Shown: positions 1 through 16,872, counted from the first letter of the stretch. The stretch: 21,997 bases of DNA from a virus (IMGVR_UViG_3300037961_006385:4777-26773), one strand, 5' to 3'. A program made the numbers and translations. Notes: generated by a model not told the origin, from the sequence alone.

Positions 1-3000
1 GCATCTTTCTCTCCAACAGGTGCAGTAGAACTTTATCATGACAATGACAAGAAATTTGAAACCACTGATGTTGGTATTGATGTAACAGGTCATACTGAAA
101 CTGATACTCTAAATGTTTCTGGTATTTCTACTCTTAGTAATGTTTTAATTGGATCTGCTACTACAGATTTTATTGTTCATGGTGATGCCAGAATAACAGG
201 AGTGATCACTGCCCAAAGAATTCATAGTGAACTTTACGGTGAGTTTACTGGATCAACAGTTGCTGCTGACTCATTAGTTGGAACATCATTATCTATTTCT
301 GGTATCTCTACACTTGGAATTACTAGTACCACTGACTTAACTTCTCAACAGTTAAACGTCTCTGGTATTTCCACATTAGGAATTGTTGAAATATATTCTG
401 GTATTGTAACTGCTACATCCGGAGTTGTTACTTATTATGGTGATGGAACAAAGTTAGATTTAACTGATGGTGTTGCTCTTGGTGGAGATACGACTGGTGA
501 TTATGTTGCATCAATTAGTGGCACGGCAAATCAAATTGCAGTTGATGTAACTTCAGGTGAAGGAACTACCCCAGTTATTTCTATTCCAAATAATCCAACA
601 CTTCCCGGAACAACAGTCACGATTGAGAACGACTTGCAAGTCGATCGTAATTTAAATGTTACTGGTGTTGCTACTGCACAGGAGTTTGTTGGTAATTTAA
701 CTGGAGCAGCAACATCTTTATCTACTGGAAGAAATTTTGAGATTACTGGTGATGTTGTTGCATCTGCAGTTTCTTTCGATGGAACAGGTAACGTAGCACT
801 TTCTGCAACGATTCAACCCAATAGTGTAGAATTAAGTACTGATACTACAGGAGACTATGTTGCTTCTTTTACTGGTACAACAAATGAAATAATTGTAAGT
901 AATGCTACCGGTGAGGGATCTACTCCACAGGTTGGATTGGATAACAATGTATCAATACAGGAAAGTTTAACCGTAGGCACTGGATTATCTGTTTCTGGTA
1001 TCTCTACACTTGGGATTACTAGTGCTACTGACTTAACTTCTCAACAATTAAATGTATCAGGAGTTTCTACTCTTGGAGTTACTACTGTCACCGACTTAAC
1101 TTCACAAAATTTAAATGTATCGGGAGTCTCTACATTTATTGGTATTGCGTCATTTACTACGAGTGATGTTTATATTGCCAATAGATTATATGTTGGTGGT
1201 TTGGAAGTAGAAGGTGGTACGGGAGAAAATGTATTCTCTGGAGTTACTACTTTTACTAATCAGACTGATAATGTCTTAGGAGATTCTAATATTGCTGCTG
1301 TTCAAATCAATGGTGGACTTGGTGTCGATCTAAACACAACTGTTGGTGCAGGTTTATCTGTTGTTGGATCAACTACTCTTGCAAACGCAAAAGTAACTGG
1401 TATCATAACTGCGACTGCACTTGCTGGATTTGATTATCTTCAAGCACCTCACGGTAGTACAGTCAACTTTGCAGTAACAGTTTCTTCTAAGTCTAACCAC
1501 AGATATAGTGGTGGTTCTGGTAGTGCATACTATATCAATGGTATTGAGTCACCATTCCTTACACTTACTCCTGGTAGAACTTACAGATTTACTCTGAGTT
1601 CTGGTGATATGTCAAGTCACCCATTCAGATTCTATCTTGAGGCAGATAGGACTACAGCATATACTACAAATGTTACTTCAACAGCAACATACACTGAGAT
1701 TGTTGTAACTGACACTACTCCAACTGTTCTTCATTATCAATGTAGTGCTCATGGATACATGGGTAATGCTGTTGAGGTAAATTCTAATAAGGTAAATACA
1801 CCTTATGAAATTGTTGGATTGAATGGTGCAAATATTACTGGGATTGTTACAGCAGTTGGATTTGCAACTGCTACTGGAACATCAATACAATTTCTTAAAG
1901 CAGATGGATCTGTTGATAACAACAGTTATTTGACAGTTTATAATGAAACTGATCCTGTAGTTACTGCTATCAATGGAATTGTTAAGTCTGATGGATCAAC
2001 AATTTCTGCTGCTCAGGCAGGAGTTGATTATTTAACTGATGTTTCTCAGGATGGAACACCTTCGTTGAATTATAATGGAAATACAGTATTTGAAGCCATT
2101 GCTATTGGTGTATCAATTTCTAATGGTGCGGCATCTACCGCAACTATTGCAGGTCCATCTAATCTTATTATTGATCCTGGAACAGTTGGAGACAATACTG
2201 GTACTGTAAGAATTAAAGGTGATTTATTTGTTGATGGTACTCAGACACAAATAAACTCTACGACTATTGAACTTGCCGACTTTGTTGTTGGTGTTGCTAC
2301 GACAGCTACCACTGATATACTTGCCGATGGTGCTGGAATTCAAATTGGTCCGGACAATACATTTAAGTATCATTATAATAGTGGAACTAATCCATCACTC
2401 AAGTCTAGTGAGAATCTGAATGTTGCTTCTGGTAAGAGTTATCAGATTGATCAAACAGAAGTTCTTAATGCAACTACCTTAGGATCTAATGTTGTTAATT
2501 CATCTCTTACAAGTGTCGGAACACTTGGTAGTCTTGACGTAAATGGACATGCTGAACTTGATGATGTAAATGTTTCTGGTGCGATTACTGCTACTACATT
2601 TACTGGAAATTTGAGTGGAACAGCAACCACTGCTACCAATCTTGCTAATGCTGCTAATATTACAACCGGAACTATATCAATTAATCGAATTGGAACGGGA
2701 ACTAAAGATAGTACTACTTTCTTAAGAGGTGATAATACTTTTGCTACGGTTGATTCTACTGCATTAATAGATTCTAATGGTGCCACAAGAGCTCAGGCAA
2801 ATCCTTCCGGTGTTGATATTACTGGTATTGTTACTGCTACCACATTTTCTGGAAATTTAAGTGGAACCGCAACTACTGCTACTAATCTTTCTAATGCTGC
2901 TAATATCACGACTGGAACTATATCAATTGATAGACTGGGATCATCCGGAACTAAAAGTAGCACTACTTTCTTAAGAGGTGATAATACTTTTGCTTCGGTT

Positions 3001-5343
3001 GATGTTGGAGATGCTACAGCAATAATAGATTCTGGTAGTACCATAAGAGTTCAAGCAACTACTTCTGGTATTCAAGTTACTGGTATTTCTACATTTAGTG
3101 ATGATATAGATTTGACTGGGACTTCTGATAGTCGTATAACTTTTGGTTCTAGTGGAACTTCTGGAACTAATGATAGTAATTTTATTAGAGCAAACGATAC
3201 AGATATAAAAATTAATAGTGCCAGTGGTGGTAAAGTTATCTTTGGATCGAATGGAACCGATGGTGTTTACATAGACAATACCAATAATGTTGGAATTGGA
3301 ACTTCAATTCCAACCAATGCTGTTGTTACTTCTAATACTTCTATTTTAAATGTTGGTGTTGTAACCGCAAACTATCTCTATGGTGATGGTGCAGGATTAA
3401 CAAATGTTCCTGGTAGTGCATTCTCAAATCTTGTACAAGATAGTCAACCACAACTTGGTGGAAACTTAGATACTAATGAGTATTTAATTGAATTTGGAGA
3501 TAGTAGTGGTCAAACTAATGATAGATTAAAGTTTGGAGATTCTGGTGATTTCCAAATGTTCCATAATGGTACTAATTCATATATTACAAATAATACTGGT
3601 GATATTATCCTTTCTACTGCCGATACTGGAGATAATAATGGTGACGATATTATTATTCAAGCAGGAACTAATAAAGATTCTATTATTGCACGTAATAATG
3701 ATGCCGTAGAACTCTATCATAACGATAGTAAGAAATTTGAAACTACTGGTTATGGTGTAACTGTTACTGGTGGTATTAATGCTTCTGGTGTTGTAACAGC
3801 AACAAACTTTGACGGTCTTGTTTCATCATCAAACTTGAGTGGAGCATTACCTGCAATCGATGCTTCTTCACTGCTTAATCTGACTGGGGTGACAGATGCA
3901 AAAACTTATGGTGATAATACAACAACACCACGGATAAGTGTAGATGCTAATGGTAGAATTACAGGAATTACTACTGTTACAACTCAGGGATCCAATGCAA
4001 TTACTGAAGTAGCGGGAGATAGCACTCCATCACTTGGTGGACCTTTAAATCTTAACAATAATAATATTACTGGAACTGCTAATATTGGTTTAGGAACTCA
4101 AACCCCAACGGATCCGGTACTTTCAACCAATTCAAGTATACTTCATGCTGGTATTGTAACTGCTAGAGAATTTTATGGTAATGGAGCAAACTTAACTGGA
4201 TTAGCTGGTGGTCAATTTGGTAGTGTTGTACAGGATACTGATCCAACACTTGGTGGTGACCTAGATGCTGCAAATTATAATATTGATAATGTTGGTATTA
4301 TAACTGCTACATCATTAGAATCTACTTCAGCAGTAGTAGGATCTGGGGTAACAATTGATTCTAGTGGTATTGACATGCCGACTGGTATTGTTACGGCAAG
4401 TAGTATACAGGCAAATATACTCAGGGACGGTGATGGTTCTACTGGTACTGCAGGTCAAGTTTTATCATATGATGGTAGTGATCTTCAGTGGGTAGATGCT
4501 GCAGCTGCAGATGCATTGGTAGGTCTTACGGTTGAAAATGAGGGTGTTATTCAGGGTAGTTCAAATGCTGTAAGTAGATTTAATTTTACTGGTGATATAA
4601 TTTCTGCATCTGTATCTGGTTCAGAAGCTACAGTTAATGTTACAACACCAAAGACTAGTGGTGAGTTTTTTACGGGAGTTTCAAGTTCCCTTCATTTGAA
4701 ACCTCTTTCATACGAAAGTGCAATGTTTACTTTCCCATCGACAGCAAATAAACAATATATAATTGAATCTATTCATGTTGCAAATATTGATGAGTCTGTT
4801 GGTGTAGGAACAACTGCAAACATTATTGCTTCTATTGAAGATAGTAGTGGAGAGCAAACTTACATTGCATATAATGTTCCCATCCTAACAGGTGGTGCTA
4901 TTGATCTTCTTAAGAATCCAATTGTTGCTGGTCCAGATTGTGTTATTAGAATGTGGTCTACGAATAGTGCTTATGTAGGTGTTAATACTGCTTTAGATGT
5001 TTATGTTAATTATACTACAGAGACATCTTCGGATTATGTTTCTGTATATGGTGGTACAACTACAATTAATACTACTGAAGCTACTCTATATACTTCATCT
5101 GGTGCAACGATGCTTGAGAAAATTGGACTTGCAAATCGCACAAATACTGGTGATCATACAGTTTCTATTAAGATTACGCAAGGAACAACAACATCTTATC
5201 TTGCTAAGAATTTAATTATACCTAGATATGCTACGGTTGATTTATTAGATAGACCAAAGAGAATTGAGAATGGTGCTAAACTTGAAGTTGAGGTTGGATC
5301 AACATCAACTATTGATGTTATTGTTGCTGGTAAAAAAATCTGA
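1..5343 (+). CDS. Giant tail-fibre-like structural protein with internal cupredoxin domain (5' partial)
   Basis: The frame is open from base 1, so a GTG at 202 is only an internal codon and the true start lies upstream; 1,780 residues are visible. Most of the protein is low-complexity beta-repeat sequence rich in V/T/S/G/N with recurrent units: VSGISTLG, ELYH-D-KKFETT (visible residues 10-21 and again near 1238), VQD--P-LGG-LD, and NLSGTATTATNL followed by STTFLRGDNTFA. Such repeats are typical of cyanophage fibre and baseplate-attached structural proteins. Residues about 480-600 form a different, compact domain resembling a cupredoxin, with ligands His540, Cys581, His584 and Met587. The last about 220 residues are non-repetitive and look like two tandem beta-sandwich domains. 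The next gene, a kelch-like adhesin, starts 11 bases downstream, supporting a host-recognition locus. Assignment as a structural fibre is a family-level inference; the exact virion position is unknown. Confidence 0.8.
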   Translation, partial: ASFSPTGAVELYHDNDKKFETTDVGIDVTGHTETDTLNVSGISTLSNVLIGSATTDFIVHGDARITGVITAQRIHSELYGEFTGSTVAADSLVGTSLSISGISTLGITSTTDLTSQQLNVSGISTLGIVEIYSGIVTATSGVVTYYGDGTKLDLTDGVALGGDTTGDYVASISGTANQIAVDVTSGEGTTPVISIPNNPTLPGTTVTIENDLQVDRNLNVTGVATAQEFVGNLTGAATSLSTGRNFEITGDVVASAVSFDGTGNVALSATIQPNSVELSTDTTGDYVASFTGTTNEIIVSNATGEGSTPQVGLDNNVSIQESLTVGTGLSVSGISTLGITSATDLTSQQLNVSGVSTLGVTTVTDLTSQNLNVSGVSTFIGIASFTTSDVYIANRLYVGGLEVEGGTGENVFSGVTTFTNQTDNVLGDSNIAAVQINGGLGVDLNTTVGAGLSVVGSTTLANAKVTGIITATALAGFDYLQAPHGSTVNFAVTVSSKSNHRYSGGSGSAYYINGIESPFLTLTPGRTYRFTLSSGDMSSHPFRFYLEADRTTAYTTNVTSTATYTEIVVTDTTPTVLHYQCSAHGYMGNAVEVNSNKVNTPYEIVGLNGANITGIVTAVGFATATGTSIQFLKADGSVDNNSYLTVYNETDPVVTAINGIVKSDGSTISAAQAGVDYLTDVSQDGTPSLNYNGNTVFEAIAIGVSISNGAASTATIAGPSNLIIDPGTVGDNTGTVRIKGDLFVDGTQTQINSTTIELADFVVGVATTATTDILADGAGIQIGPDNTFKYHYNSGTNPSLKSSENLNVASGKSYQIDQTEVLNATTLGSNVVNSSLTSVGTLGSLDVNGHAELDDVNVSGAITATTFTGNLSGTATTATNLANAANITTGTISINRIGTGTKDSTTFLRGDNTFATVDSTALIDSNGATRAQANPSGVDITGIVTATTFSGNLSGTATTATNLSNAANITTGTISIDRLGSSGTKSSTTFLRGDNTFASVDVGDATAIIDSGSTIRVQATTSGIQVTGISTFSDDIDLTGTSDSRITFGSSGTSGTNDSNFIRANDTDIKINSASGGKVIFGSNGTDGVYIDNTNNVGIGTSIPTNAVVTSNTSILNVGVVTANYLYGDGAGLTNVPGSAFSNLVQDSQPQLGGNLDTNEYLIEFGDSSGQTNDRLKFGDSGDFQMFHNGTNSYITNNTGDIILSTADTGDNNGDDIIIQAGTNKDSIIARNNDAVELYHNDSKKFETTGYGVTVTGGINASGVVTATNFDGLVSSSNLSGALPAIDASSLLNLTGVTDAKTYGDNTTTPRISVDANGRITGITTVTTQGSNAITEVAGDSTPSLGGPLNLNNNNITGTANIGLGTQTPTDPVLSTNSSILHAGIVTAREFYGNGANLTGLAGGQFGSVVQDTDPTLGGDLDAANYNIDNVGIITATSLESTSAVVGSGVTIDSSGIDMPTGIVTASSIQANILRDGDGSTGTAGQVLSYDGSDLQWVDAAAADALVGLTVENEGVIQGSSNAVSRFNFTGDIISASVSGSEATVNVTTPKTSGEFFTGVSSSLHLKPLSYESAMFTFPSTANKQYIIESIHVANIDESVGVGTTANIIASIEDSSGEQTYIAYNVPILTGGAIDLLKNPIVAGPDCVIRMWSTNSAYVGVNTALDVYVNYTTETSSDYVSVYGGTTTINTTEATLYTSSGATMLEKIGLANRTNTGDHTVSIKITQGTTTSYLAKNLIIPRYATVDLLDRPKRIENGAKLEVEVGSTSTIDVIVAGKKI
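1441..1791 (+). other. Cupredoxin (pseudoazurin/amicyanin-like) domain inside the fibre gene
   Basis: This segment encodes about 115 residues that break the surrounding fibre repeats. It reads as a beta-sandwich with SSHPFRF (His codon at 1618) and, 41 residues later, YQCSAHGYMG (Cys codon 1741, His 1750, Met 1759). The C-x2-H-x2-M spacing equals that of pseudoazurin and amicyanin, and the upstream His lies at nearly the spacing seen in those proteins (about 38-39 residues). All four type-1 copper ligands are therefore present. Whether the fold binds copper in the virion or is used only as a stable display domain cannot be told from sequence. Confidence 0.6.
2578..3081 (+). repeat. Tandem duplication of an ~82-86-codon fibre unit
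   Basis: Two adjacent in-frame copies (2578-2823 and 2824-3081) encode the same unit: GI(V)TATTF, GNLSGTATTATNL, NAANITTGTISI, STTFLRGDNTFA, then an ALIDS/AIIDS segment. The second copy is four codons longer. DNA identity is high, so this looks like a fairly recent duplication within the fibre shaft. Confidence 0.85.
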
Positions 5344-5354
5344 GGGTAGGATAA

Positions 5355-8300
5355 ATGGGAACAAAGAATGATGTATTCGGATTAGAAAACGTTTATGGAC
5401 TTCAGATAGAAGGCGAATGGGCTTCAAAAAGTGATGTCTGGCAAACAGCATCAAATGTTTTGCAAGATAATCCTTTTGGATATTGGGCTGGTGGAATGGA
5501 ATTTATTAATGGAAACACTTATGTATTTCCTACTTCAATAAGTCGTCTTGATTATTCTAATGATACTAATAATGCAATAGCAAGAGGTTTTTTGCATGAT
5601 GTTAATGCTTCTCACTATACAACACTTGGCAATAGTAATTTTGGGTATTGGGCTGGTGGCCATCCATATATCTATGGTTCAACCACACCCTCTACGAAGT
5701 CAAATATACAACGTTTAGAGTTTGGAAATGATACTAATTCTACATTAATTAGAAGCAATTTGGAAGAGGGGGTAAGATATTCTGCTGGATCTGGTAACAA
5801 TGTTTTTGGTTATGTTCTTGGAGGAGTTAAGGATACGGAACAGTATGGACCAAAAGTATCACTTGTACAACGTATTTCATATGCGAATGACACTGCAAGT
5901 ATATCTCCTAAAGGTCCTTTAGGAGATATAAGAGGCACCCATTCAGCAGTACCATCAGGTACTAACGCATATATTGCTGGGGGAGTAACTGGTGAGCCAA
6001 CCACTCCGACTAATTATCAAACAACCATAGAACGTCTTGATTTTTCCAATGATACTGCTTCTACATCAAACTTAGGTGACATGCAAGCTACAAGGACTGG
6101 GCATTTTGGAACAGGGAATACCACTTCTGCTTACTGGAGTGGTGGAACTGCAATTGGTCTTCCTGCAACGAATGCAAAGAAATCAGAAAGACTTGATTAT
6201 TCTAGTGACACTAGTAATACCGTCTATAAAGGATCTACATCTATTCAACTTATGGGAGGAGGTTCAGCTGGCAGTACAACTGGTGGATATTTTGGTGGTG
6301 GAAGTAGCACTACTCCAGGAGTATTTTATTCAAGTGTGTATCGTCTTGATTATTCTAGTGATACATCCAACACTGTTGGTAAAGGTAATATAGGTAATGA
6401 GGTACTTCGTGTTTCAGCATGTAGTTCTCAGGGAAATGGTTTAACTCGTCAAACAGTATTTTTTGCAGGAAATTCTTCTACTACTACAGTACCAACAGGA
6501 ACTAATTGGGCATATTTTGCTGGTGGTAACACTAATCCTGGTAACACTTATCATAGTGATATTCAAGCAATTGATATGAAAAATGATACTTTTGATAGCA
6601 AAAACAAAACGTCTATGATGTCCCCAAGTCCGGCAAGATCTGGTATGATGGCAGTTGGAAATAATGATAATGGTTATTTCTGTGGGGGATATCATCCATC
6701 TGCAAGTCCTTCATTTTTGTCTGATATAAGAAGACTTGATTATTCTAATGATACCACTAGAAGTATAGTTAGTTCTTCTGTTTTTCCACTCCATATGCAT
6801 GGAGCAGATGGTGCAAGTAATCTTACTTATGGTTATCTTTTTGGAGGAATTGGAACTAACAACACTAAATTTATGAGAATTGAATTTAGTAATGAGACAA
6901 CCACTCTTATGCCATCAGGATCTGGTCAACATGATAGCCTTCAAAGATGTAAAGTCACCGGTAATCAATCATATGCTTGGATTACGGGTGGATATTTTCT
7001 AAATCCTACTACAACTGTTAGTACAGTAGAAAAATTTGATTTTTCAAATGATAGTGCTGCTTTGTCACCACATGCGGCACTGATAAAGGAAAGAGATAGT
7101 CACAATGCATCAGGTAACCTCAACTTTGGATATTTTGGTGGTGGACAATATACTGATTATGTTTCTTCTATAGATCGTATTGATTATTCCAATGATACGG
7201 TGTCACAAATTGCCACTATGAGTAGTCCTTCTCGTCATAGTTATTCGGGATCGACAGGAAATTCTTCCGGTGGTTATTATGCAGGTGGTAGAGCAGATAC
7301 CGGTAATAATAATGATGATGCACTTATTAGACGTATCGATTATTCTAATGATACTGAGAATCCTATTCTTAAAGGTAGCTTAATTGAAGGTAATATGGGA
7401 CAACTGGCTGGATTGAGTGCTCATGAAAATGGATTGCCAGAGACAAGAAATGATGGATATGAATATAGAGCATTCTTGTATTATCCAATAACTGCAGTTG
7501 ATGGTGGATATGGTGCAAGTAATAATTCTAGAACTTTTGATGTAGGAGACTTCCGTGAAACTTATAATAGTGGATATATTATTGGTGGTGATGAACCTGG
7601 AAGTACTCATGCCGCAAATATGGAACGGTTAGATTTTACTAATGATACTGCAAGATTACAAACTAGAGGTAACGTTGATAATGTTCGCAGTTTTTCTCAT
7701 TTTGCAGGAAATGAAAATTTCTTCTATCAAATGGGGGGAGTAATCAACTTTGGAGGGATTGGATCATATACCTCAAACATATATCGTGTTAGTTATGCCA
7801 ATGATACTCAATTTACCAATGTAAGTGATTTGGATGAAGAAACATACGAAGGTGCGGCAGTAAGCACTCGATATAAAGCATATGTTGCTGGTGGTAGAGA
7901 GGGTAATAATCTTCTTAATAATATTAGTAAACTAAATTTTAGTAATGAAACAGCAAGTACAGCAATTACAGCTAATTTATATCAGGCTAGAACCTTTTTA
8001 GACGGAACAAGTAATGACTCATATGGATATTTTGGTGGTGGTACTGGAATACCAGTTAGTGTTCCTGCTATTATGTCAACTGTAGATCGTCTTGATTTTT
8101 CTAGTGATACTAGTAATACTGTAAATAAAGGAAGTCTTTTGGAAGACAGGTCATATGGTTTAGCAGCTTGTGGTAATAGATATTATGGATATTTTGGTGG
8201 TGGATATACTGAACCTGGTATATACCATTCATTTATAAGTCGTGTTGATTATGCAAGGGATACTACAAATAATCCAGCTAGAGGTCCATTAACAGCTGCT

Positions 8301-8570
8301 GCTTACCAACTTGCAGCAACAAGTAATTCTGATTATGGATATTTTATGACTGGATCTGGTCCAGGTACACCAACTCCGTACCTTAGTACAACTCAACGTC
8401 TTGATTTTTCCAATGATACTGCTGATACTGTAGTTAAGGGGGCATGTAATTATAGTAAAAATGATGCGGGAGGAGTAAGTGCAAGAGAACACGGACTTGC
8501 TCAGATGGGAGCAGATATTGTAAGAGGTCCTGCAACAGCTTATAATGAATCAGTGGAGCAAACTCCATAA
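5355..8570 (+). CDS. Kelch-like propeller-array protein, 18 blades (3 x 6)
   Basis: This 1,071-residue protein is almost entirely a tandem repeat of about 50 residues with the pattern (F/Y)GY(F)xGG...RLDYSNDT...G-L...R...GN. That order matches the kelch blade: double Gly strand, Y-D-x-x-T turn, then a conserved Arg. I count 18 blades in three blocks of six, beginning near residues 42, 385 and 739 and each closing with a linker like SAxENGL. Three six-bladed propellers in a row is the simplest reading. There is no catalytic motif, signal peptide or membrane segment. The N-terminal segment (FGL...W...SDVW, residues 9-29) is shared with the second kelch-like protein and may be an attachment anchor. 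The start has a Shine-Dalgarno-like GGGTAGGA upstream and lies 11 bases after the fibre gene, so the two are probably co-transcribed. A role as virion adhesin is inferred. Confidence 0.8.
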   Translation: MGTKNDVFGLENVYGLQIEGEWASKSDVWQTASNVLQDNPFGYWAGGMEFINGNTYVFPTSISRLDYSNDTNNAIARGFLHDVNASHYTTLGNSNFGYWAGGHPYIYGSTTPSTKSNIQRLEFGNDTNSTLIRSNLEEGVRYSAGSGNNVFGYVLGGVKDTEQYGPKVSLVQRISYANDTASISPKGPLGDIRGTHSAVPSGTNAYIAGGVTGEPTTPTNYQTTIERLDFSNDTASTSNLGDMQATRTGHFGTGNTTSAYWSGGTAIGLPATNAKKSERLDYSSDTSNTVYKGSTSIQLMGGGSAGSTTGGYFGGGSSTTPGVFYSSVYRLDYSSDTSNTVGKGNIGNEVLRVSACSSQGNGLTRQTVFFAGNSSTTTVPTGTNWAYFAGGNTNPGNTYHSDIQAIDMKNDTFDSKNKTSMMSPSPARSGMMAVGNNDNGYFCGGYHPSASPSFLSDIRRLDYSNDTTRSIVSSSVFPLHMHGADGASNLTYGYLFGGIGTNNTKFMRIEFSNETTTLMPSGSGQHDSLQRCKVTGNQSYAWITGGYFLNPTTTVSTVEKFDFSNDSAALSPHAALIKERDSHNASGNLNFGYFGGGQYTDYVSSIDRIDYSNDTVSQIATMSSPSRHSYSGSTGNSSGGYYAGGRADTGNNNDDALIRRIDYSNDTENPILKGSLIEGNMGQLAGLSAHENGLPETRNDGYEYRAFLYYPITAVDGGYGASNNSRTFDVGDFRETYNSGYIIGGDEPGSTHAANMERLDFTNDTARLQTRGNVDNVRSFSHFAGNENFFYQMGGVINFGGIGSYTSNIYRVSYANDTQFTNVSDLDEETYEGAAVSTRYKAYVAGGREGNNLLNNISKLNFSNETASTAITANLYQARTFLDGTSNDSYGYFGGGTGIPVSVPAIMSTVDRLDFSSDTSNTVNKGSLLEDRSYGLAACGNRYYGYFGGGYTEPGIYHSFISRVDYARDTTNNPARGPLTAAAYQLAATSNSDYGYFMTGSGPGTPTPYLSTTQRLDFSNDTADTVVKGACNYSKNDAGGVSAREHGLAQMGADIVRGPATAYNESVEQTP
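5469..8500 (+). repeat. Kelch-like blade array, modules A-C
   Basis: Eighteen blades of roughly 130-180 bases. Module A spans about 5469-6440, module B about 6507-7435 and module C about 7569-8500. The most conserved stretch is the DNA for the R-L-D-Y-S-N-D-T turn (for example 5544-5564 and 6735-6755), often nearly identical between blades, which makes the array a good substrate for unequal recombination. Confidence 0.85.
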
Positions 8571-8575
8571 TACTG

Positions 8576-8588
8576 TGTTATAATAAAC
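8576..8588 (+). promoter_or_regulatory. Extended -10 promoter (TGTTATAATAAAC)
   Basis: TG-T-TATAAT with the hexamer at 8579-8584, right after the kelch-like gene and 20 bases before the glycosyltransferase ATG. There is no -35 match at the right distance and no Shine-Dalgarno sequence before the ATG. The same 13 bases recur at 15559-15571 after the second kelch-like gene. Confidence 0.55.
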
Positions 8589-8604
8589 AAAACTGTTATT
8601 TGAT

Positions 8605-9258
8605 ATGGGTATAATGATCGCACTCCCTTGTCATGGGGGAATTGTGAATGAAAAAACGACGATGAATTTGTTCAATTTGGGCAAACTTTTATTGAGGAGA
8701 GGTATACCTCATGGTCTTTTAACACAGGCAAACTCTTCCTTGATTACTCATGGAAGATCTAAGTGTGCAAACTTTTTCATTAATAATACAGATCATGAAT
8801 ACATGTTCTTCCTTGATAGTGATATTGGATTTAATCCAGAAGATGTGTTAAAGATGTTGAGTTACAATGAAGATATTATTTCTGGAGCATATCCAATGAA
8901 AACAATGCCAATTCGGTATTGTATTGATGTTCTTCATCCGGAAGAACGTAAAGGAAATCTTCTTAAAATTGGTGGGAACGGTATGGGATTTGTAATGATT
9001 CATCGTAGAGTCTTTAATGAAATTGCAAGGAGATATCCTCAGTTAAAATACACACCATCTACTAATGATAGTAACTATCCACCTTCTCAAGCAGAGATGA
9101 ATAATTCATATCATTATTTTATGGAAGAAAAACTTGGTGATAGTTTTGCATCCGAAGATAAAAGTTTCTTTTATCGTGCTAGAATGTCTGGATATACTCA
9201 TTGGCTAGATACTACAATCAAACTACAACACGTTGGTTCACACGTTTTTTCTGAATAA
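8605..9258 (+). CDS. GT-A fold glycosyltransferase
   Basis: The 217-residue product begins with the beta-strand IMIALPCHGG, has the family-typical SSLITHGRS segment around residues 44-52, and a clear DXD motif in FFLDSDIGF (Asp71, Asp73), which in GT-A enzymes holds the divalent metal and nucleotide sugar. The following SGAYPMK and GGNGMGFVMIHR segments also fit small cyanophage and bacterial GT-A transferases. It would transfer a sugar from a nucleotide donor to a protein or glycan; donor and acceptor are unknown. It lacks a membrane segment and is probably cytoplasmic. It has its own putative promoter and sits 2 bases before a GT-B enzyme, suggesting that the two act in sequence. ATG at 8614 is an alternative start. 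Confidence 0.75.
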   Translation: MGIMIALPCHGGIVNEKTTMNLFNLGKLLLRRGIPHGLLTQANSSLITHGRSKCANFFINNTDHEYMFFLDSDIGFNPEDVLKMLSYNEDIISGAYPMKTMPIRYCIDVLHPEERKGNLLKIGGNGMGFVMIHRRVFNEIARRYPQLKYTPSTNDSNYPPSQAEMNNSYHYFMEEKLGDSFASEDKSFFYRARMSGYTHWLDTTIKLQHVGSHVFSE

Positions 9259-9260
9259 TT

Positions 9261-11015
9261 ATGAAATCTGGAGCAACTGAAAGTTCATTTCATTATCTTT
9301 CACAACACTATAAATTCCCTGAAGATGTAAAAGTTTCTCATCTTCCGGAAGAATTAAAAAAATCAAATAAACCATACAAAATTTTGTGGGCACATCATGC
9401 ATATGATCAACCACTCTTTTTAAATTTCGATCATAATATAGTAAGTCATATTGTTACACCATCTCATTGGGCAAAAGAAAAATTTGTTCAAATTCATAAG
9501 GTTCCTAAGGATAAGATAACTGTAATCTCAAATGGTGTGAGTGATATCTTCACTTACTCTGAGAATAAAACAAAGACTTTTATTCATACATCAATTCCTT
9601 ATAAAGGATTGGTGTTAATGCCTACTATCATACAAAGGATTCAGCAAAAACATCCTGATGCAAAGTTTAAAATCTTTTCATCAATGTCATTGTATGGTGA
9701 TCAAGATGATCCTTATACTCAACTGTATGAGCATTTAAAAAGACTTCCTAATGTAGAATATTCTGAAGCAGTTGATCAAGAACAACTTGTTTCTGCCTAT
9801 CAAGATGCTGCATTCTTTATTCACCCTAATATTTGGGAAGAGACTTTTTGTGTTGCGATGACAGAGGCAATGAAGTGTGGTGCTTATCCAATCATTACCG
9901 ATATTGGTGCTACACCTGAAGTTGCCGGTGATAAATTTGCTTCAGTGGTTCCACTAGAGGGAACCCGAACAACTCAGGGATATGAGGTTACTGAAAACTT
10001 TCTAAATAAATTTGCAGAGGTTTGTTGTACTGCTTTAGATTATTTTGAAGAAGACAGGACATATTATAATCAAATCTCAAAATCTATTTCTAATCACGTT
10101 TCTCAGAAATATGATTGGGAAAAAATTGCACAACAGTGGAAAAAACTGATCACTAAAATTGTAAAGGAAGAACCCATGACCAACGAAAACACTGCACTGT
10201 CCTATACTCCAATCACTTCTGAACAGGCAGTGATGGATGATGAGTATCTTAAGAAAGCATTTGCTAATGTCTTGAGATGGGAAGAGAGTGATAAAGAACT
10301 TGCACAAGGTAGAACTAATTTTCAGTTAGAAAAGTTTATTCTGCTTGATACGCATACTATTCCTGTTGCTTTTGAAAATATTCTGAAGTCTCGTCGTCAA
10401 ATGGCAGAAGGATATATGTACAAACTCATTGAGATGAAACAGAGAGTTCGTGAGTTTGAATACAAGTGGGCAAATAAAGATCGAACTCAACCAATCTTTT
10501 GGGAAAGTGGTGGACCTGGTGGTGGCAGTAAAGAACTTCACTGGTTTGATTTGGACGAATTGTCACTGACTCATTATCTGAAGTCATGTGAACTTGAAAT
10601 TCGTGATCGTCTTCATCAGATGGAACACCTTGATAAAATGCTTGAGAAATTGATCGAGCAGAATGGTGGTAAACCAGTTACCAGAGAACAGTTCCTTGAT
10701 AATGATGGTAAGTATTGGGAACGTCGTTTTGCTGATCAGGCAATGGATGAAATGGTTGCGGCACAGACTGGTATTTCTATCGGCAACCTGCACAGTATGC
10801 GTCGTGCATCTGCACCTTCTCTTGTTGATAAGAGGAATGAACTTCCCGAAGGATATCTGCCTATGAGTAAAATTCTTGAAAGTCCTCAAGGTAAGATGGA
10901 CTTCCTTAACGATCTTCAGAAGAAAGTTCTTACAGGTATTCAAGAAGTTACCGGACAGGATCTTGGTATGATTACAGGTTCACCAGAAGAGGAGCAAAAG
11001 AAACTTCAAGGTTAG
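9261..11015 (+). CDS. GT-B (GT4-like) glycosyltransferase fused to an unknown C-terminal domain
   Basis: Residues 1 to about 300 resemble a GT4-type glycosyltransferase: VTPSHWAKEKF and VISNGVSDIF near the domain linker, HPNIWEETFCVAMTEAMKCGAYP with the E-x7-E motif (Glu194, Glu202), and ATPEVAG. The N-terminal Rossmann half is short for GT4. Residues about 306-584 are unrelated: polar, mostly helical by composition, with ITSEQAVMDDEYLKKAF and charged coiled-coil-like segments (about 370-410, 450-480). I do not recognise this part. A Met at residue 306 (ATG 10176) is preceded by AAGGAAG seven bases upstream, so the C-terminal part may also be made separately. The gene follows the GT-A gene by 2 bases and precedes the next gene by 1 base, so all are likely co-translated. 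Confidence 0.7.
   Translation: MKSGATESSFHYLSQHYKFPEDVKVSHLPEELKKSNKPYKILWAHHAYDQPLFLNFDHNIVSHIVTPSHWAKEKFVQIHKVPKDKITVISNGVSDIFTYSENKTKTFIHTSIPYKGLVLMPTIIQRIQQKHPDAKFKIFSSMSLYGDQDDPYTQLYEHLKRLPNVEYSEAVDQEQLVSAYQDAAFFIHPNIWEETFCVAMTEAMKCGAYPIITDIGATPEVAGDKFASVVPLEGTRTTQGYEVTENFLNKFAEVCCTALDYFEEDRTYYNQISKSISNHVSQKYDWEKIAQQWKKLITKIVKEEPMTNENTALSYTPITSEQAVMDDEYLKKAFANVLRWEESDKELAQGRTNFQLEKFILLDTHTIPVAFENILKSRRQMAEGYMYKLIEMKQRVREFEYKWANKDRTQPIFWESGGPGGGSKELHWFDLDELSLTHYLKSCELEIRDRLHQMEHLDKMLEKLIEQNGGKPVTREQFLDNDGKYWERRFADQAMDEMVAAQTGISIGNLHSMRRASAPSLVDKRNELPEGYLPMSKILESPQGKMDFLNDLQKKVLTGIQEVTGQDLGMITGSPEEEQKKLQG
10176..11015 (+). CDS. Possible internally initiated product of the glycosyltransferase fusion gene
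   Basis: An in-frame ATG at 10176 has a good Shine-Dalgarno sequence (AAGGAAG, 10164-10170) at normal spacing and falls at the border between the GT-B domain and the unknown domain. It would give a 279-residue protein starting MTNENTALSYTPITSEQAV. It contains a glycine-rich loop (GGPGGGS, nt about 10510-10530) and many Glu/Lys/Arg-rich helical segments. It could be an ancestral separate gene whose upstream stop was lost. This is an inference; the longer fusion may be the only product. Confidence 0.4.
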   Translation: MTNENTALSYTPITSEQAVMDDEYLKKAFANVLRWEESDKELAQGRTNFQLEKFILLDTHTIPVAFENILKSRRQMAEGYMYKLIEMKQRVREFEYKWANKDRTQPIFWESGGPGGGSKELHWFDLDELSLTHYLKSCELEIRDRLHQMEHLDKMLEKLIEQNGGKPVTREQFLDNDGKYWERRFADQAMDEMVAAQTGISIGNLHSMRRASAPSLVDKRNELPEGYLPMSKILESPQGKMDFLNDLQKKVLTGIQEVTGQDLGMITGSPEEEQKKLQG

Positions 11016-11016
11016 T

Positions 11017-11550
11017 ATGAATCAAAATATTATTATTGCTGATGATTTCTATGATATTGCACATAAGTATCATAAAGGAATTCTTGAAGGGAAATTAGTT
11101 TTTACCGAAGAAATACCTAATAAAATTTCATATCTATTAGGTCGTAAAGTAAAGGTAGAAAATTTATTTAATCAAAGTGACCTTGCAAATACTTTCAATC
11201 CAATCACATCTAATCTTGCATGTGATTGGATTGCCGTAGTTTATTTGACACTTCCTGCAGAATGTATATCTAAAAAAGGTATGAGTTTTTATAGTCATGT
11301 TAGGACAGGTCTCGATTCATTTCCTGATGAATATACTCTTCAGTTGCATGGATTAAAAACTCATGATGAGATTGTCTCAACATTTGATGTTAAAAAGAAG
11401 GAAGATTGGAAAGAATATTCTAGTGTCTATGTAAAATATAATCGTATTGTTTTATTTAATGCACGTCTTTGGCATTCATATGGTAATGGCTTTGGTGAGC
11501 AAATAAATAACTCAATGATATATCAAAAGATGCTAATAAAAAATGCCTAG
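11017..11550 (+). CDS. Degenerate DUF6445-like protein (metal ligands lost)
   Basis: The 177-residue product is a paralogue of the enzyme at 15587. The N termini match (NIII-DDFYD against NIIVVDNFYD), as do the cores (DWIAVVYL against EWGAVIYM) and the C-terminal NRIVLFNARLWHS segment. In the relative the oxygenase ligands are His84, Asp86, His177 and a 2-oxoglutarate-type Arg191. Here the aligned positions are Thr64, Asn66, His153 and Met167, so only one ligand remains. It is therefore probably not a working Fe(II)/2-oxoglutarate enzyme; a binding or regulatory role, or decay, is possible. The frame is intact with a weak Shine-Dalgarno AAGG upstream. It overlaps the next gene by 8 bases, implying translational coupling to the kelch-like protein. 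Confidence 0.6.
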   Translation: MNQNIIIADDFYDIAHKYHKGILEGKLVFTEEIPNKISYLLGRKVKVENLFNQSDLANTFNPITSNLACDWIAVVYLTLPAECISKKGMSFYSHVRTGLDSFPDEYTLQLHGLKTHDEIVSTFDVKKKEDWKEYSSVYVKYNRIVLFNARLWHSYGNGFGEQINNSMIYQKMLIKNA

Positions 11551-14500
11551 AGGAATATTTGGATTAAGACAAACTCACGATAATCAAAAAGCTGAAAATT
11601 GGTCCGTTTTAAGTGACGTTTGGTTGAGTTATAATGGTCCTTTTGGTAAAGAGAATCCTTATGGATACTTCATGGGTGGTGATAATAATAGCAGAATATT
11701 TCGATTAGATTTTAGTAATGATACTGATGGTGCTTCAATTCATGCCTTTCAAATAGATGATAGAGATGATGGGACAGCAGCATTTGGTAATCCTAATTAT
11801 GGGTATATTACTGGTGGTGACACAGTATCTGTACTTATCGATGACACTTCTATAGAACGTCTTGATTATAGTAATGACACTGCTGGTACAGTGCTTATGT
11901 CAGGATATTCTAGTACTAGAAGACATCTCCTTGTTGCAATAGGCAATGAAAATTATGGATATTTTGGTTCTGGACATAATGGTGGATCCCCTCGGATTCA
12001 TAGGACGAAGCTTGATCGTTATGATTATGCTACTGATACTGTAATTAATTCAATAACTGGTTTTTATGATTCAACTGGAACACTTACCCGAGCGTGTTCA
12101 GGCGGAGCTGTAGTAGGCAATCAATTCTTTGCATATTTTGCTGGCGGGTATCGGGGTTTTGGCCTTAGTAGTGCTATACGTCGTTTAGATTATGCTAATG
12201 ATACTGACAAAGTTCAACCTCGCAATAGTGTGTTAACTGGTAATACTAGGAATTTTACTGCATCTGGTGATGAAAATGGTGGTTATTTTATGGGAGGGTA
12301 TTCATATCCATCACCATATGAAGGTACTCATAGCATAGTATCTCGTTTAGATTATACTAATGATACTAATGCACTATCACCCAAATCTAATTTACCTAGT
12401 GAAAAATCTGATCATTGTTCAACGGGCAATAGTAAGTTTGGGTATGTTGCTGGTGGATCTCAATATCCCACTCGTTCTTTAATATATCGTCTTAATTATT
12501 CTAATGACACCACCACTGATAGTTTTAAAACAGTAGGAAACTTAGGACAAACTGGTACTTTTCAATATGGTGCCGGAGTAAGTGCTACAGAAAATGCATT
12601 AGGATCGCAAAATCTAAGTTCAGTTCCTGCACTTTCTAGTAGAGATACTGGAGGAACACCGCAAGGAACTGATTTTGGATATTCTGGTGGAGGAAGATTG
12701 CCTGCTATAACAACTGTTATAGATCGTTTTGATTACTCTAATGATACTACTCAAACTCAAGTAAAAGGTGGTTTATTAACAGAAATGGAGGATGTGGCCT
12801 CTGTAAGCAGTGCTGACTTTGGATATTTTGCTGGTGGATTCAATAACTTTTCTAGGTATTCATATGTATATCGTGTAGATTATTCTAACGATAGTGCTAA
12901 TTCAGTAGCAAAGGGGAATTTATCATCACCCACTGGAACATTTAGTGCTGAGGGAGTGGGTAATTCCAACTTTGGTTACATTACTGGTGGAGGAGAACCA
13001 TCTATAACATCAAATATAAGACGTATAATTTATGCCAACGATACTACTACTCAATTTTTAAGAGGTAACTTAGAAGAAGCTTTGTTTGATCATGGTGCTG
13101 TAGGTACTCCTAACTTTGGATATATTGCTGGTGGAGGTGGATACTCTCCACCAAAATCGACAATACAAAGAATGCAATATGCCGATGATACTTCCAAAAC
13201 ATTACCTAAAGCTACCTTAGGTTCTGGAGGTAGAAATAATCTTATGGCAACTGGAAATTCAGAGTTTGGTTACTTTGCCGGACAATTTCCTTCAGTATCA
13301 ATAAACGAACGTTTTGATTATTCTAATGATACTGTAAATGCAGTAACAAAAGGATCACTTAGTTCACATAGAGGTAGTGGCTCGGCAACAGGTAATCAAA
13401 GTAAGGGTTACTTTATGGGTGGTTATGATAATAACACTGCTTTAACATCAATCGTAGATAGATTTGATTATTCTAACGATACTGCTAATGCTGTTCATAC
13501 TGCTTATTTGACGGATAGTGTAGCAAATAATACTGCAACGAGTTCTAGAGAAAATGCAATTCCAGTTCAAGGACCAGGTGTTTTATTTGGTATTTTTGAA
13601 AAACTTGTTGATGGAACACGTTCAACTTCTGATACTGGATTTGTATATTCTGGAACTACAGGATCTCGAATAACTTCTATAGAACGTATTGATTATTCTA
13701 ATGATACTGTTTCATTAGTTAGAGGAAATGTGGAGGAGGCGAGACAATCTTTCGCATCAGTAGGTAATGAAAATTTTGGATATGTTGCAGGTGGAATCAC
13801 TCCAACATCCACAGGATCTAATCCTACTCCATATGATGATTCGAGAGTAGAGAGGATCGATTATTTAAATGATACTGCAACTGGTTTGTTTAGAGGACCA
13901 TTATCCGAATCAAGATCTGGTTGTGCGGGTGTAGGTAATAACAGTTATGGGTATGTGGGTGGTGGAGAAGGTGGACCTTTCAATTTACAGGTTAACATTT
14001 CAAGTATAGATCGTATTGATTACTCTAATGATGCTGTAACTGCATCTGCAAGATTTTCTCCTCCTACAGCTATAAGAAGACATGGTATCATGGCAACAGG
14101 AAATCAAAGTTATGGATATTTTGCCGGAGGAGTAAACGATGATCTTGCACCTGATGCACCAACATCTACTGTATTTCGTGTTAACTATGCTTCTGATACT
14201 AGTTTCACAACTAGAGGTTATCTGAATCATACTGCGGCATTTGGTGCAGCAACGGGCAACGCTAATGGTGGATATATTGCTGGTGGAACTAATTATCCAA
14301 CAACACCACAAGTTTATTATTCATCGGTGAGTTATATTGATTACTCTAATGATCTTAATCAGGCAACTCCTAAAGGTAATCTAAGTAGTGAACAATGGAA
14401 GATGGCAGCAACAGGTGATGCTAATTTTGGATATTTTTCTGGTGGAGGACTTATAGATACTCGTGCAAGAGTAGATCGTATTGATTATGCTAATGATACT

Positions 14501-15556
14501 GTCACAGCATCACCTAAAGGACGATTAAACGTATCTAGATACGATCATTCTTCTTCTAGTGCTAGAGCAAATGGATTTGCTGCAGTAAATGGTCCTGCAT
14601 TTTCTGAAGTTTTTGCGGCTGAAGTGAGACCAGCTTCTACATTCGGTTACTTTGCGGGTGGTGACATCAATCCTGGAGCTGGTTACAACACTTATACAAG
14701 TGTTGTGGATAGAATTACTTTTGATAATGATACTGTTACAGCACCTGCTCGAGCTCCATTGCCTGCAGGAGGTAAAAACTGTCTGGCAGGAGTGGGAAGT
14801 CTTAATTATGGTTATACAGGTGGTGGATATCTTGGAGATCCAACAGCCATTCACTCTAAAATAGAACGTATTGATTATACTAGTGATACTGGAGATATGA
14901 CACACAGAGCTAACTTAGCTGTACGATGGGGATTGGCAGCTTGTGGTAATGTTGATAAAGCTTATTTTGCGGGTGGTGACTCAATTACTGCGGGTTATCA
15001 ATCCAGTAGAACAACAAGGATAGAACGTTTTGATTATTCTAATGAAACTGTAACAGCTGTCGGAGATTTGGGATTCTATGTTAGAAGATTTTGTGCAGTT
15101 GGTACTCAAAGTTTTGGATATTTTACTGGTGGTGAGCCATCAGTTTCGGGTGGATCGAGAATAGAACGTCTTAGTTATTCTAATGATACTACTGACACAA
15201 TTTCTATGTCAAACTCCAATAATCCTGGTTGGGGATCAGCAGCAACTGGCAATGCTACTTATGCATATATTGGTGGTGGTAATCAATTTTACTCTAGAAT
15301 AACCCGTTACGATTATGCTAACGATACATCTACTCATTCTAGTATAGGAAATTTAGTAGCTACAGAGGGATATAGTTTGGCAGCAACTGGCAATGCCAAT
15401 TTTGGATATTTTGGTGGTAATATGGATATGACTTCCATTTTGGATAGAATTGATTACTCTAACGATACTGTAAATGCATCACCCAAAGGACCATTGAGTT
15501 TGGGAAGAGAAGAACTTACAGGACTTAGTGGAGGAGAGGATGGGAATCCACAATAA
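11543..15556 (+). CDS. Kelch-like propeller-array protein, 24 blades (4 x 6)
   Basis: At 1,337 residues this is a larger sister of the protein at 5355. It shares the N-terminal FGL...W...SDVW anchor (residues 7-27) and the blade pattern GYFxGG...RIDYSNDT...G-L...R...TGN. Twenty-four blades are counted in four blocks of six starting near residues 40, 378, 698 and 1034, divided by linkers SATENALG (347), SSRENAIP (667) and SSARANGF (about 1004), and ending in GLSGGEDGNPQ. No enzyme motif, signal peptide or transmembrane segment is visible. The four-module build against three in the sister suggests evolution by module gain or loss. It begins inside the end of the degenerate DUF6445-like gene. 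Virion adhesin or receptor/glycan binding is inferred; assignment as kelch-like rests on pattern, not on a profile search. Confidence 0.8.
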   Translation: MPRGIFGLRQTHDNQKAENWSVLSDVWLSYNGPFGKENPYGYFMGGDNNSRIFRLDFSNDTDGASIHAFQIDDRDDGTAAFGNPNYGYITGGDTVSVLIDDTSIERLDYSNDTAGTVLMSGYSSTRRHLLVAIGNENYGYFGSGHNGGSPRIHRTKLDRYDYATDTVINSITGFYDSTGTLTRACSGGAVVGNQFFAYFAGGYRGFGLSSAIRRLDYANDTDKVQPRNSVLTGNTRNFTASGDENGGYFMGGYSYPSPYEGTHSIVSRLDYTNDTNALSPKSNLPSEKSDHCSTGNSKFGYVAGGSQYPTRSLIYRLNYSNDTTTDSFKTVGNLGQTGTFQYGAGVSATENALGSQNLSSVPALSSRDTGGTPQGTDFGYSGGGRLPAITTVIDRFDYSNDTTQTQVKGGLLTEMEDVASVSSADFGYFAGGFNNFSRYSYVYRVDYSNDSANSVAKGNLSSPTGTFSAEGVGNSNFGYITGGGEPSITSNIRRIIYANDTTTQFLRGNLEEALFDHGAVGTPNFGYIAGGGGYSPPKSTIQRMQYADDTSKTLPKATLGSGGRNNLMATGNSEFGYFAGQFPSVSINERFDYSNDTVNAVTKGSLSSHRGSGSATGNQSKGYFMGGYDNNTALTSIVDRFDYSNDTANAVHTAYLTDSVANNTATSSRENAIPVQGPGVLFGIFEKLVDGTRSTSDTGFVYSGTTGSRITSIERIDYSNDTVSLVRGNVEEARQSFASVGNENFGYVAGGITPTSTGSNPTPYDDSRVERIDYLNDTATGLFRGPLSESRSGCAGVGNNSYGYVGGGEGGPFNLQVNISSIDRIDYSNDAVTASARFSPPTAIRRHGIMATGNQSYGYFAGGVNDDLAPDAPTSTVFRVNYASDTSFTTRGYLNHTAAFGAATGNANGGYIAGGTNYPTTPQVYYSSVSYIDYSNDLNQATPKGNLSSEQWKMAATGDANFGYFSGGGLIDTRARVDRIDYANDTVTASPKGRLNVSRYDHSSSSARANGFAAVNGPAFSEVFAAEVRPASTFGYFAGGDINPGAGYNTYTSVVDRITFDNDTVTAPARAPLPAGGKNCLAGVGSLNYGYTGGGYLGDPTAIHSKIERIDYTSDTGDMTHRANLAVRWGLAACGNVDKAYFAGGDSITAGYQSSRTTRIERFDYSNETVTAVGDLGFYVRRFCAVGTQSFGYFTGGEPSVSGGSRIERLSYSNDTTDTISMSNSNNPGWGSAATGNATYAYIGGGNQFYSRITRYDYANDTSTHSSIGNLVATEGYSLAATGNANFGYFGGNMDMTSILDRIDYSNDTVNASPKGPLSLGREELTGLSGGEDGNPQ
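11660..15530 (+). repeat. Kelch-like blade array, modules A-D
   Basis: Module A spans about 11660-12600, B about 12674-13560, C about 13634-14575 and D about 14642-15530. Each holds six blades of about 45-60 codons. The turn DNA (GATTATTCTAATGATACT and close variants) is shared between blades, between modules and with the array at 5469-8500. Confidence 0.85.
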
Positions 15557-15558
15557 TA

Positions 15559-15571
15559 TGTTATAATAAAC
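15559..15571 (+). promoter_or_regulatory. Extended -10 promoter (TGTTATAATAAAC)
   Basis: Identical to the 13 bases at 8576-8588 and in the same position: just after the stop of a kelch-like gene and about 20 bases before an enzyme gene that lacks a Shine-Dalgarno sequence. The hexamer TATAAT is at 15562-15567. No -35 match is seen. Confidence 0.55.
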
Positions 15572-15586
15572 CAATATTGTGATCAC

Positions 15587-16204
15587 ATGAGACAAAATAT
15601 TATTGTTGTTGATAATTTTTATGATAATCCAGGAGAGGTTAGAAATTTTGGATTAAATTCTAAATTCCCGATTGATAAGGAAAGCACATATCCTGGAAGA
15701 AATTCTGATGAATTTTATTATTCTGAAGAGATTCATAAGAAGTTTGAATTTCTTGCCAAAGAACGATTAACAGCTGCCGATAAGAACGGATACTTCCGTA
15801 TTTCTTTTGAGAATGATACATATAAACAGGACGTTCATGTAGATCCATCTTGGGAATGGGGTGCTGTAATTTATATGTCCGACCCAAAAGATTGTATTGA
15901 TGAGGGTGGCACATCATTTTGGAGACATAATAGTTTAAAGATAGAAAATATTCCTAAGACTGATCTTGAGGCACAACATCATGGATGGCCAACGTATAAA
16001 GAATGTTGGTGGACAACTGTGTATGGTGATGGACTAGATAGAGACAAATGGACACGATACTTCTTGTGTCCGATGAAGTTCAATCGTTTAGTGTTATTCA
16101 GAACTCACTTGTGGCACTCACATAACTATAACTTTGGTAACACGTTAGAAAATGGACGAATGGTTCAATTATTCTTTTTTAATCCTATAAAGGAGTGGAA
16201 ATAA
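15587..16204 (+). CDS. DUF6445-type Fe(II)/2-oxoglutarate oxygenase-like protein
   Basis: The 205-residue protein begins MRQNIIVVDNFYDNPGEVR, typical of the cyanophage/proteobacterial DUF6445 group. It carries the pieces of a double-stranded beta-helix oxygenase: His84-x-Asp86 in DVHVDPSWEW, a GGTSFWRH strand, a distal His177 in THLWHSHNYNFG and Arg191 fourteen residues later, in the place of the 2-oxoglutarate-binding basic residue. It would hydroxylate an unknown protein, glycan or small molecule using O2 and 2-oxoglutarate. It follows the second kelch-like gene behind a putative promoter and precedes a second oxygenase by 5 bases, so the two probably form an operon. Family name is from memory of the sequence pattern. 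Confidence 0.65.
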   Translation: MRQNIIVVDNFYDNPGEVRNFGLNSKFPIDKESTYPGRNSDEFYYSEEIHKKFEFLAKERLTAADKNGYFRISFENDTYKQDVHVDPSWEWGAVIYMSDPKDCIDEGGTSFWRHNSLKIENIPKTDLEAQHHGWPTYKECWWTTVYGDGLDRDKWTRYFLCPMKFNRLVLFRTHLWHSHNYNFGNTLENGRMVQLFFFNPIKEWK

Positions 16205-16209
16205 AATAT

Positions 16210-16872
16210 ATGATTGATAACCCACTGACAAATATTTTAATTAGACCTAATGTCATTTCTCCTGAAGGTATTCAAGAGATAATTTATCATATTGAAAGGT
16301 CTTCTTCAGAAGATCTTTCTGTTTTTGATCCGATGACTACAAACAAAACGGGAAAAACATCATGGCAAGTTAATAAAAAAATAAGAGATACTCAGATCAT
16401 TGAGATGGGTCCACTGCTTCCAAATATTGAGGGACTTCTTAGAGGTGCAGTAAAACATGTTATCAATCCATTCTATGGGATTGAAGTGGACAGTAGTGAA
16501 TTTCCACAGTTATTGTCATATAGTGTTGGTGGACATTATAATCCACACATTGACGGGGAAAGTATTTGGCTCACACCAGAAGGTGAAAAGATTTGGAAGA
16601 AGTCTACTGATAGAGATTTGTCAATGGTGTTTTATTTAAATGATGATTTTGAAGGTGGTGATTTTATTTTTCCGGAACACCATATTCGTGTTAGACCTGA
16701 ACCAGGTATGATGATTTGTTTCCCGTCAAGTCATCATTATCTTCATGGAGTTGAACCCGTAACAAAAGGCAAGAGATATAGTATTGTAACTTGGGCTACT
16801 GTGAAGGGTTTCCCTAGCATGGATCAAGTTAATAAAGAATTGTCTCAGAAGTATGGAGTTCCTGTGGTCTAA
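16210..16872 (+). CDS. Prolyl-4-hydroxylase-like Fe(II)/2-oxoglutarate oxygenase
   Basis: The 220-residue product matches the P4H-alpha type: YNPHIDGES gives His113-x-Asp115, FYLNDDFEGGDFIFP is the typical strand-turn after the first metal ligands, and SHHYLHGVEPVTKGKRYSIVTW gives distal His179 and Arg189 ten residues later for 2-oxoglutarate. All four key residues are present. Enzymes of this type hydroxylate prolyl or other side chains in proteins and are common in T4-like cyanophages near structural genes. I chose ATG 16210 (5 bases after the upstream stop, AGGAG at 16191-16195). A GTG at 16195 is in frame but would overlap both the Shine-Dalgarno sequence and the previous gene. The substrate is unknown; neighbouring fibre and propeller proteins are candidates. 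Confidence 0.85.
   Translation: MIDNPLTNILIRPNVISPEGIQEIIYHIERSSSEDLSVFDPMTTNKTGKTSWQVNKKIRDTQIIEMGPLLPNIEGLLRGAVKHVINPFYGIEVDSSEFPQLLSYSVGGHYNPHIDGESIWLTPEGEKIWKKSTDRDLSMVFYLNDDFEGGDFIFPEHHIRVRPEPGMMICFPSSHHYLHGVEPVTKGKRYSIVTWATVKGFPSMDQVNKELSQKYGVPVV

Follow-up and report, generated by a model that had tools for sequence, protein, structure and literature searches.

Strings of whole six-bladed kelch rings in a relative of T4-like cyanophages: candidate host-recognition adhesins exchanged as cassettes

Introduction

What are two very large repeat proteins doing beside the tail-fibre gene of a virus, and why do their repeats come in sixes? The question arises from a 21,997-nucleotide stretch of viral DNA (IMGVR_UViG_3300037961_006385:4777-26773), here called the window, in which an earlier note, made from the sequence alone, had seen two proteins built only of six-bladed, kelch-like propellers. 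In the virus record (26,773 bases), thyX, phoH and an exonuclease gene form a stretch that is also present in Synechococcus phage S-SKS1, the best DNA match (77.5% identity); the virus is thus a relative of the T4-like cyanophages. Our analysis points to the two proteins, A and B, being tail-associated, multi-ring kelch adhesins of this virus that are exchanged as cassettes, a reading to which we give a probability of roughly 0.6.

Results

Seven rings of six blades in two proteins

Blades were counted by their D-box ([hydrophobic]-x-[YF]-x-N-D-T, e.g. RIDYSNDT), each paired with a preceding GYxxGG-like strand, which gave 18 blades in protein A (1071 aa) and 24 in protein B (1337 aa). From one D-box to the next there are 46-56 residues within a ring and 75-98 residues from ring to ring, and the long steps occur only after blades 6 and 12 of protein A and after blades 6, 12 and 18 of protein B. 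A closing motif (SAxENGL-like) follows the sixth blade in all seven rings. Counts and spacing therefore bear out the earlier division into three and four six-blade modules, each followed without exception by the motif. The description of the proteins as propellers only holds for their rings, which run throughout, and needs the addition of a conserved N-terminal tag of about 30 residues and a short C-terminal tail. Likewise, the region 5355-15556 does encode both propeller proteins, and also two glycosyltransferase-like genes and a DUF6445 gene between them (8605-11550; Table 1).

Table 1 Coordinates of the features in the window, counted from its first nucleotide
Feature	Position	Strand	Evidence or remark
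Tail-fibre-like repetitive protein, open at window start	1..5343	+	PHROG tail fibre phrog_30742, E 9e-61; stops 11 bases short of gene A
Propeller protein A: N-terminal tag and 3 rings of 6 blades	5355..8570	+	ORF list; Pfam Kelch_1 E 4.8e-8; phrog_19111 E 1e-87
Conserved N-terminal tag of protein A (MGTKNDVFGLENVYGLQIEGEWASKSDVW)	5355..5441	+	Most of the relatives' complete ring proteins have a comparable tag
Ring A1, 6 blades; closing motif SACSSQGNGL at 6414..6443	5472..6443	+	Blade counts; motif register from B3 model
Ring A2, 6 blades; closing motif LSAHENGL at 7413-7436	6504..7436	+	
Ring A3, 6 blades; closing motif VSAREHGL at 8475-8498	7566..8498	+	
Glycosyltransferase-like gene (c6)	8605..9258	+	phrog_1574; weak Glycos_transf_2; in 22/55 sources
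Glycosyltransferase (group 1) gene (c3)	9261..11015	+	Pfam Glycos_transf_1 E 1.9e-14; 31/55 sources
DUF6445 (2OG-oxygenase-like) gene; end overlaps start of gene B	11017..11550	+	E 4e-4 (under the cut-off); same cluster as 15587-16204
Propeller protein B: N-terminal tag and 4 rings of 6 blades	11543..15556	+	ORF list; phrog_19111 E 2e-114
Ring B1; closing motif VSATENAL at 12578-12601	11657..12601	+	
Ring B2; closing motif SSRENAI at 13541-13561	12674..13561	+	
Ring B3 (modelled), 24 strands; closing motif SSARANGF at 14555-14578	13631..14578	+	AlphaFold2
Ring B4; closing motif LSGGEDGN at 15524-15547	14642..15553	+	
DUF6445 gene (c1)	15587..16204	+	Pfam DUF6445 E 5.5e-12; family in 39/55 sources
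2OG-Fe(II) oxygenase gene (c0)	16195..16872	+	Pfam 2OG-FeII_Oxy_3 E 5e-17; 42/55 sources

An identical short sequence, TGTTATAATAAACnAA, stands after both propeller genes (8576-8591 and 15559-15574), directly before the next gene, and is possibly a promoter element; the late-promoter pattern TATAAATA was found nowhere within the window.

Fold and closure of a single ring

The earlier note had named structure prediction of single modules as a check, and the AlphaFold2 model of ring B3, computed from 75 aligned rings of the window and of viral contigs, is a closed six-bladed ring with exactly 24 strands (pLDDT 82, pTM 0.85). Each blade of the model has four antiparallel strands in the order A (xxxAATG), B (GYFGGG), C (VDRIDY) and D (ATASPKG), and the same closed form is assigned to the other six rings through their alignment to B3. 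Blade 1 combines strands B, C and D from the N-terminal end with an A strand supplied by the last strand of the chain (model residues 327-333), as is characteristic of six-bladed kelch rings. This last strand continues into the SAxENGL-like motif, which replaces the TGNxxFGY of a normal blade and takes the chain out of the ring. The motif, which had been taken for a linker, marks every ring end, but in the model it caps the ring-closing strand, and the linker proper consists of the 15-45 residues that follow. A three-ring, full-length model of protein A (13 sequences) reached a pLDDT of 32 and was not used as evidence.

Comparisons of the B3 model by Foldseek and VIA-align matched designed SAKe6 propellers and Keap1 with E about 1e-18, Z scores of 36-37 and an rmsd of 2-2.5 A; for the designed SAKe6DEref (8pjt), 293 residues superpose with an rmsd of 2.4 A (Z 37.4). 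The alignment is colinear with Keap1 326-609 over the entire ring, which argues for the same ring closure as in Keap1. When the ring profile was compared with PDB sequences, SAKe6FR was matched at 1e-10 and KLHL12 at 2e-7. Both proteins match the phrog_19111 profile significantly (Table 1); in Pfam, protein A exceeds the gathering scores of Kelch_1 (32.8 vs 20.1) and Kelch_4 (24.1 vs 21.6), and protein B has no match. The GG doublet is present in 93-94% of the blades, but the classical kelch Tyr/Trp pair, about six residues apart, is replaced by Ile/Val/Leu and Ala/Thr, so we regard the rings as a kelch fold with a repeat signature of its own. Together, the B3 model and its colinear whole-ring alignments to Keap1 and SAKe6 support the kelch-like, six-bladed reading of the earlier note; kelch fold and ring number are well supported, and the model supports the closure of a single ring.

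The same data bear on whether the rings could be carbohydrate-active enzymes, similar to galactose oxidase or sialate mutarotase, that act on sugars of the host surface. Galactose oxidase is a seven-bladed kelch protein with a Cys-Tyr copper site. Protein A does match the Pfam family 'Galactose oxidase, central domain', and NCBIfam mutarot_permut is matched weakly, with 21.9 bits where the cut-off is 243.2, but the B3 model has six blades, no Cys column is conserved in the 75-ring alignment, and the only invariant columns over the 75 rings are the D-box Asp residues repeated in each blade, with no conserved catalytic set specific to a ring. We consider an enzymatic role very improbable.

Relatives vary by whole rings only

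One scan of IMG/VR yielded 188 stretches encoding relatives; the 80 best of them make up the 54 loci used here. Blades were counted per ORF. Among the non-redundant complete ORFs from the best 80 of the 188 stretches, 58 of 59 have 6, 12, 18, 24, 30 or 36 blades. An ORF with 16 blades was rejected as an exception: it carries a frameshift, and two further blades and a closing motif lie in another frame, so that all 59 complete ORFs have multiples of six. Such counts are far beyond chance. The complete relatives have about 310-320 residues per ring, reach up to 1900 residues and carry constant N-terminal tags.

The rule also extends to more distant proteins. In two single-cell marine viruses, whose divergent proteins (24-30% identical) are undercounted by the blade profile and were counted by eye, we found 3x6, 3x6, 3x6 and 2x6 blades, with a LamG-like domain between rings; in a propeller protein of marine virus AG-345-L05 (L060:16838-19585), this domain lies between two closed rings. 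The pieces of the S-SKS1 ring genes sum to twelve blades, as 9+3 and as 8+4 spanning the record ends.

These S-SKS1 genes are broken by frame changes or record ends (L059, which is NC_020851.1 165000-208007, at 36817-38666, 39593-41352 and 42249-42962; L062 at 3-1226), and the ORF L059 36817-38181 (about 201,816-203,180 in the record) is without annotation. Some six-blade ORFs have other N-terminal domains, with a LamG-like start in L008:839-2521 and a start resembling a cyanophage structural protein in L041:6153-9275. In L034:7022-9271 and other two-ring proteins of 724-754 aa, which occupy the third slot of one lineage, there is an extra N-terminal domain of about 100 residues (MPAGDVFGLDGFFLNKSNPITVS...).

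The family is frequent in viral metagenomes, with 188 matching stretches in the one scan, but occurs in only 4 of 50,697 phage records. Among 84,980 bacterial and archaeal genomes, no relative was detected at the sensitivity used, so an origin from host genes is without support and was set aside.

Gene slots and exchange of ring strings

The genes occupy slots that can be distinguished by their N-terminal tags. In the IMG/VR loci, slot K1 holds 3-5 rings, K2 holds 2-6 and K3 holds 1-6; protein A of the window is K1 and protein B is K2. Recent tandem duplication was considered as a source of rings and rejected, because the nearest relative of a ring lies in its own protein in only 1 of 203 cases.

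The loci L012 and L021 offer a direct view of how ring strings may change. Between the two, the flanking genes show 93-98% DNA identity and the first 35 codons of K3 show 93%, yet K3 has five rings in L012 and four in L021, and these rings share only 47-66% protein identity. With flanks and tag constant and rings different, the ring string has, as read from these sequences, been swapped as a cassette behind a constant tag.

Variation is concentrated on the presumed ligand side

Over 918 blades, the most variable positions are 13 and 14, which follow the conserved Arg12, and 30, 31, 34 and 35, which follow GG (entropy 3.4-3.8 bits). Selection was estimated from 76 independent ring pairs by a simple counting method, with gap-adjacent codons excluded; ring pairs may recombine, and the dN/dS values are to be read with this in mind. 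The ratio exceeds 1 in two loops, D-A (1.27, interval 1.12-1.42) and B-C (1.52, interval 1.29-1.86), and is much lower in the A-B turn (0.23), the C-D turn (0.10) and the strands (0.36). In the ten closest ring pairs it is 0.88 (D-A) and 1.44 (B-C), both with intervals that include 1.

In the kelch fold, as in Keap1-Nrf2, the same side of the ring carries both the D-A and the B-C loops. Because these loops share the ligand side of the fold, the varying side of the phage rings would, by analogy, be their ligand side. With the Keap1 numbering anchored by the Tyr525-Tyr572 spacing of 47, blade positions 13 and 30, both hypervariable, align with Ser555 and Tyr572, which in Keap1 contact peptide or small ligands (PMC12266349).

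This pattern weighs on the possibility that the strings are decoration fibres, whiskers or spacers on the tail or capsid that adhere loosely and in which ring number sets length and not specificity. Ring number is indeed free at one slot (1-6), and phage CBB has both tail whiskers and a kelch virion protein, between which the paper draws no link (PMC5259590). However, the confinement of dN/dS above 1 to two loops of the ligand side, and the cassette exchange, point to specific recognition, and we regard mere decoration as unlikely.

Neighbouring genes

The window and the 54 loci together make 55 sources (best 80 of 188 stretches). A common order is tail fibre, K1, glycosyltransferases (c6, c3), DUF6445 (c1), K2, c1, sulfotransferase (c2), K3, 2OG oxygenase (c0) and carbamoyltransferase (c8), and the order around the slots varies between lineages. 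The sulfotransferase family is found in 34 of the 55 sources; the window lacks both it and K3. Ring genes adjoin tail-fibre genes in the window and in many relatives, and the gene upstream of protein A is the tail-fibre gene that the earlier note had placed beside the propellers. Its product is highly repetitive, with NVSGISTL-type units, and extends beyond the window. PHROG labels the genes at 11017-11550 and 15587-16204 'minor coat protein' (phrog_1644), perhaps wrongly, since in Pfam they match DUF6445 and, weakly, a 2OG-oxygenase.

A further alternative is that the proteins are takeover scaffolds, retained inside the infected cell or released from it, that bind host proteins, with loops diversifying against host targets. 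Cellular and poxviral kelch proteins bind host proteins, kelch rings being mainly protein-binding scaffolds, and poxvirus kelch proteins are among the fold matches here. Such a role sits poorly with genes placed between tail-fibre genes and modification enzymes, and with proteins of up to 1900 residues that carry constant N-terminal tags, and we consider it improbable.

Discussion

Our preferred reading remains that proteins A and B are host-recognition adhesins. The N-terminal tag would probably anchor the protein in the virion, ahead of a string of closed six-bladed kelch rings, and a beads-on-a-string arrangement in the virion is plausible. As a separate matter, the tag was considered as a general virion anchor and rejected, since no non-propeller protein of S-SKS1 has it. 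Each ring would close itself in the manner of Keap1, its last strand completing blade 1 alongside the three strands from the N-terminal end. Self-closing would make the ring the unit of folding and of evolution, so that gain, loss and exchange proceed by whole rings only. The D-A and B-C loops would bind cell-surface structures, glycans or proteins, and diversify, with the opposite side conserved; each ring would be a separate binding unit whose loops change along with the host surface. Whole ring strings would be swapped behind a constant tag and constant flanks, like tail-fibre tips, and the rings may be modified by enzymes encoded next to them, the glycosyltransferases, the sulfotransferase and the dioxygenases. 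Ring count, quantisation, loop diversification and cassette exchange are read from sequences; location in the virion, anchoring, binding and modification belong to the proposed mechanism. Phage CBB, whose virion contains the kelch protein CBB_552 (PMC5259590), provides a precedent for kelch proteins in virions, which is counted in favour of adhesins.

The existence of proteins of one to six whole rings with variable ligand-side loops suggests a swappable host-recognition device. We propose more tentatively, and a little short of an even chance, that it forms a ring-quantised recognition array in a large phage family, with up to three slots that each encode a constant anchor followed by a string of 1-6 closed kelch rings. 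The ligand-side loops would be under positive selection, the strings would be swapped as cassettes, and dedicated enzymes encoded between the slots (glycosyltransferase, sulfotransferase and dioxygenase) would modify the products. If this is true, the array would recognise hosts in a way that differs from both ordinary fibre tips and retroelement-diversified adhesins. Repeat proteins usually change in length repeat by repeat; the present genes vary by whole rings only, in 59 of 59 complete cases, and are a clean example from nature of selection for ring closure. One-sided loop diversification together with cassette exchange leads to a specific prediction of the host-recognition site in an uncharacterised family of phage proteins.

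Comparison with known systems

The kelch domains of Keap1 and KLHL proteins (1zgk, 2vpj) share with the phage rings six four-stranded blades, the GG doublet, a C-terminal strand that completes blade 1 and the same strand order, and their ligand-contact positions correspond to variable positions of the phage rings. They differ in sequence (about 17% identity), and the phage rings have no conserved kelch Trp, several rings per chain and no BTB/BACK domain. The designed SAKe6 propellers (8pjt, 8pjx, 7onc) are the top structural matches (Z about 37) and the top PDB sequence match, with regular six-fold repeats like those of the phage rings; unlike these, they are artificial single rings.

Among phages, the closest counterparts are phrog_19111 and SWZG_00001, SWZG_00289 and SWZG_00291 of S-SKS1, with the same blade type, closing step and similar neighbours; no function is assigned to them. 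S-SKS1 has two-ring genes, but its copies are interrupted in the public sequence, as described above. The kelch proteins of phage CBB (CBB_550/552/554) and of jumbo-phage virions (Phabio, Noxifer, PhiPA3) place kelch in tailed phages and are structural matches in BFVD, but they are distant in sequence from the rings of the window; strings of whole rings in them are not described in the literature searched. Cyanophage P-HM2 has a kelch gene (PMC3037559), and kelch repeats are enriched in long-read marine viromes. In that literature, the CBB paper, the P-HM2 gene and the virome remark were the only sources found on kelch and phage receptor binding. We found no prior description of whole-ring quantisation, a diversifying side or cassette exchange, in a literature coverage that is incomplete. 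Kelch proteins in phages are thus already known, and what is new here is the ring-quantised, diversifying string.
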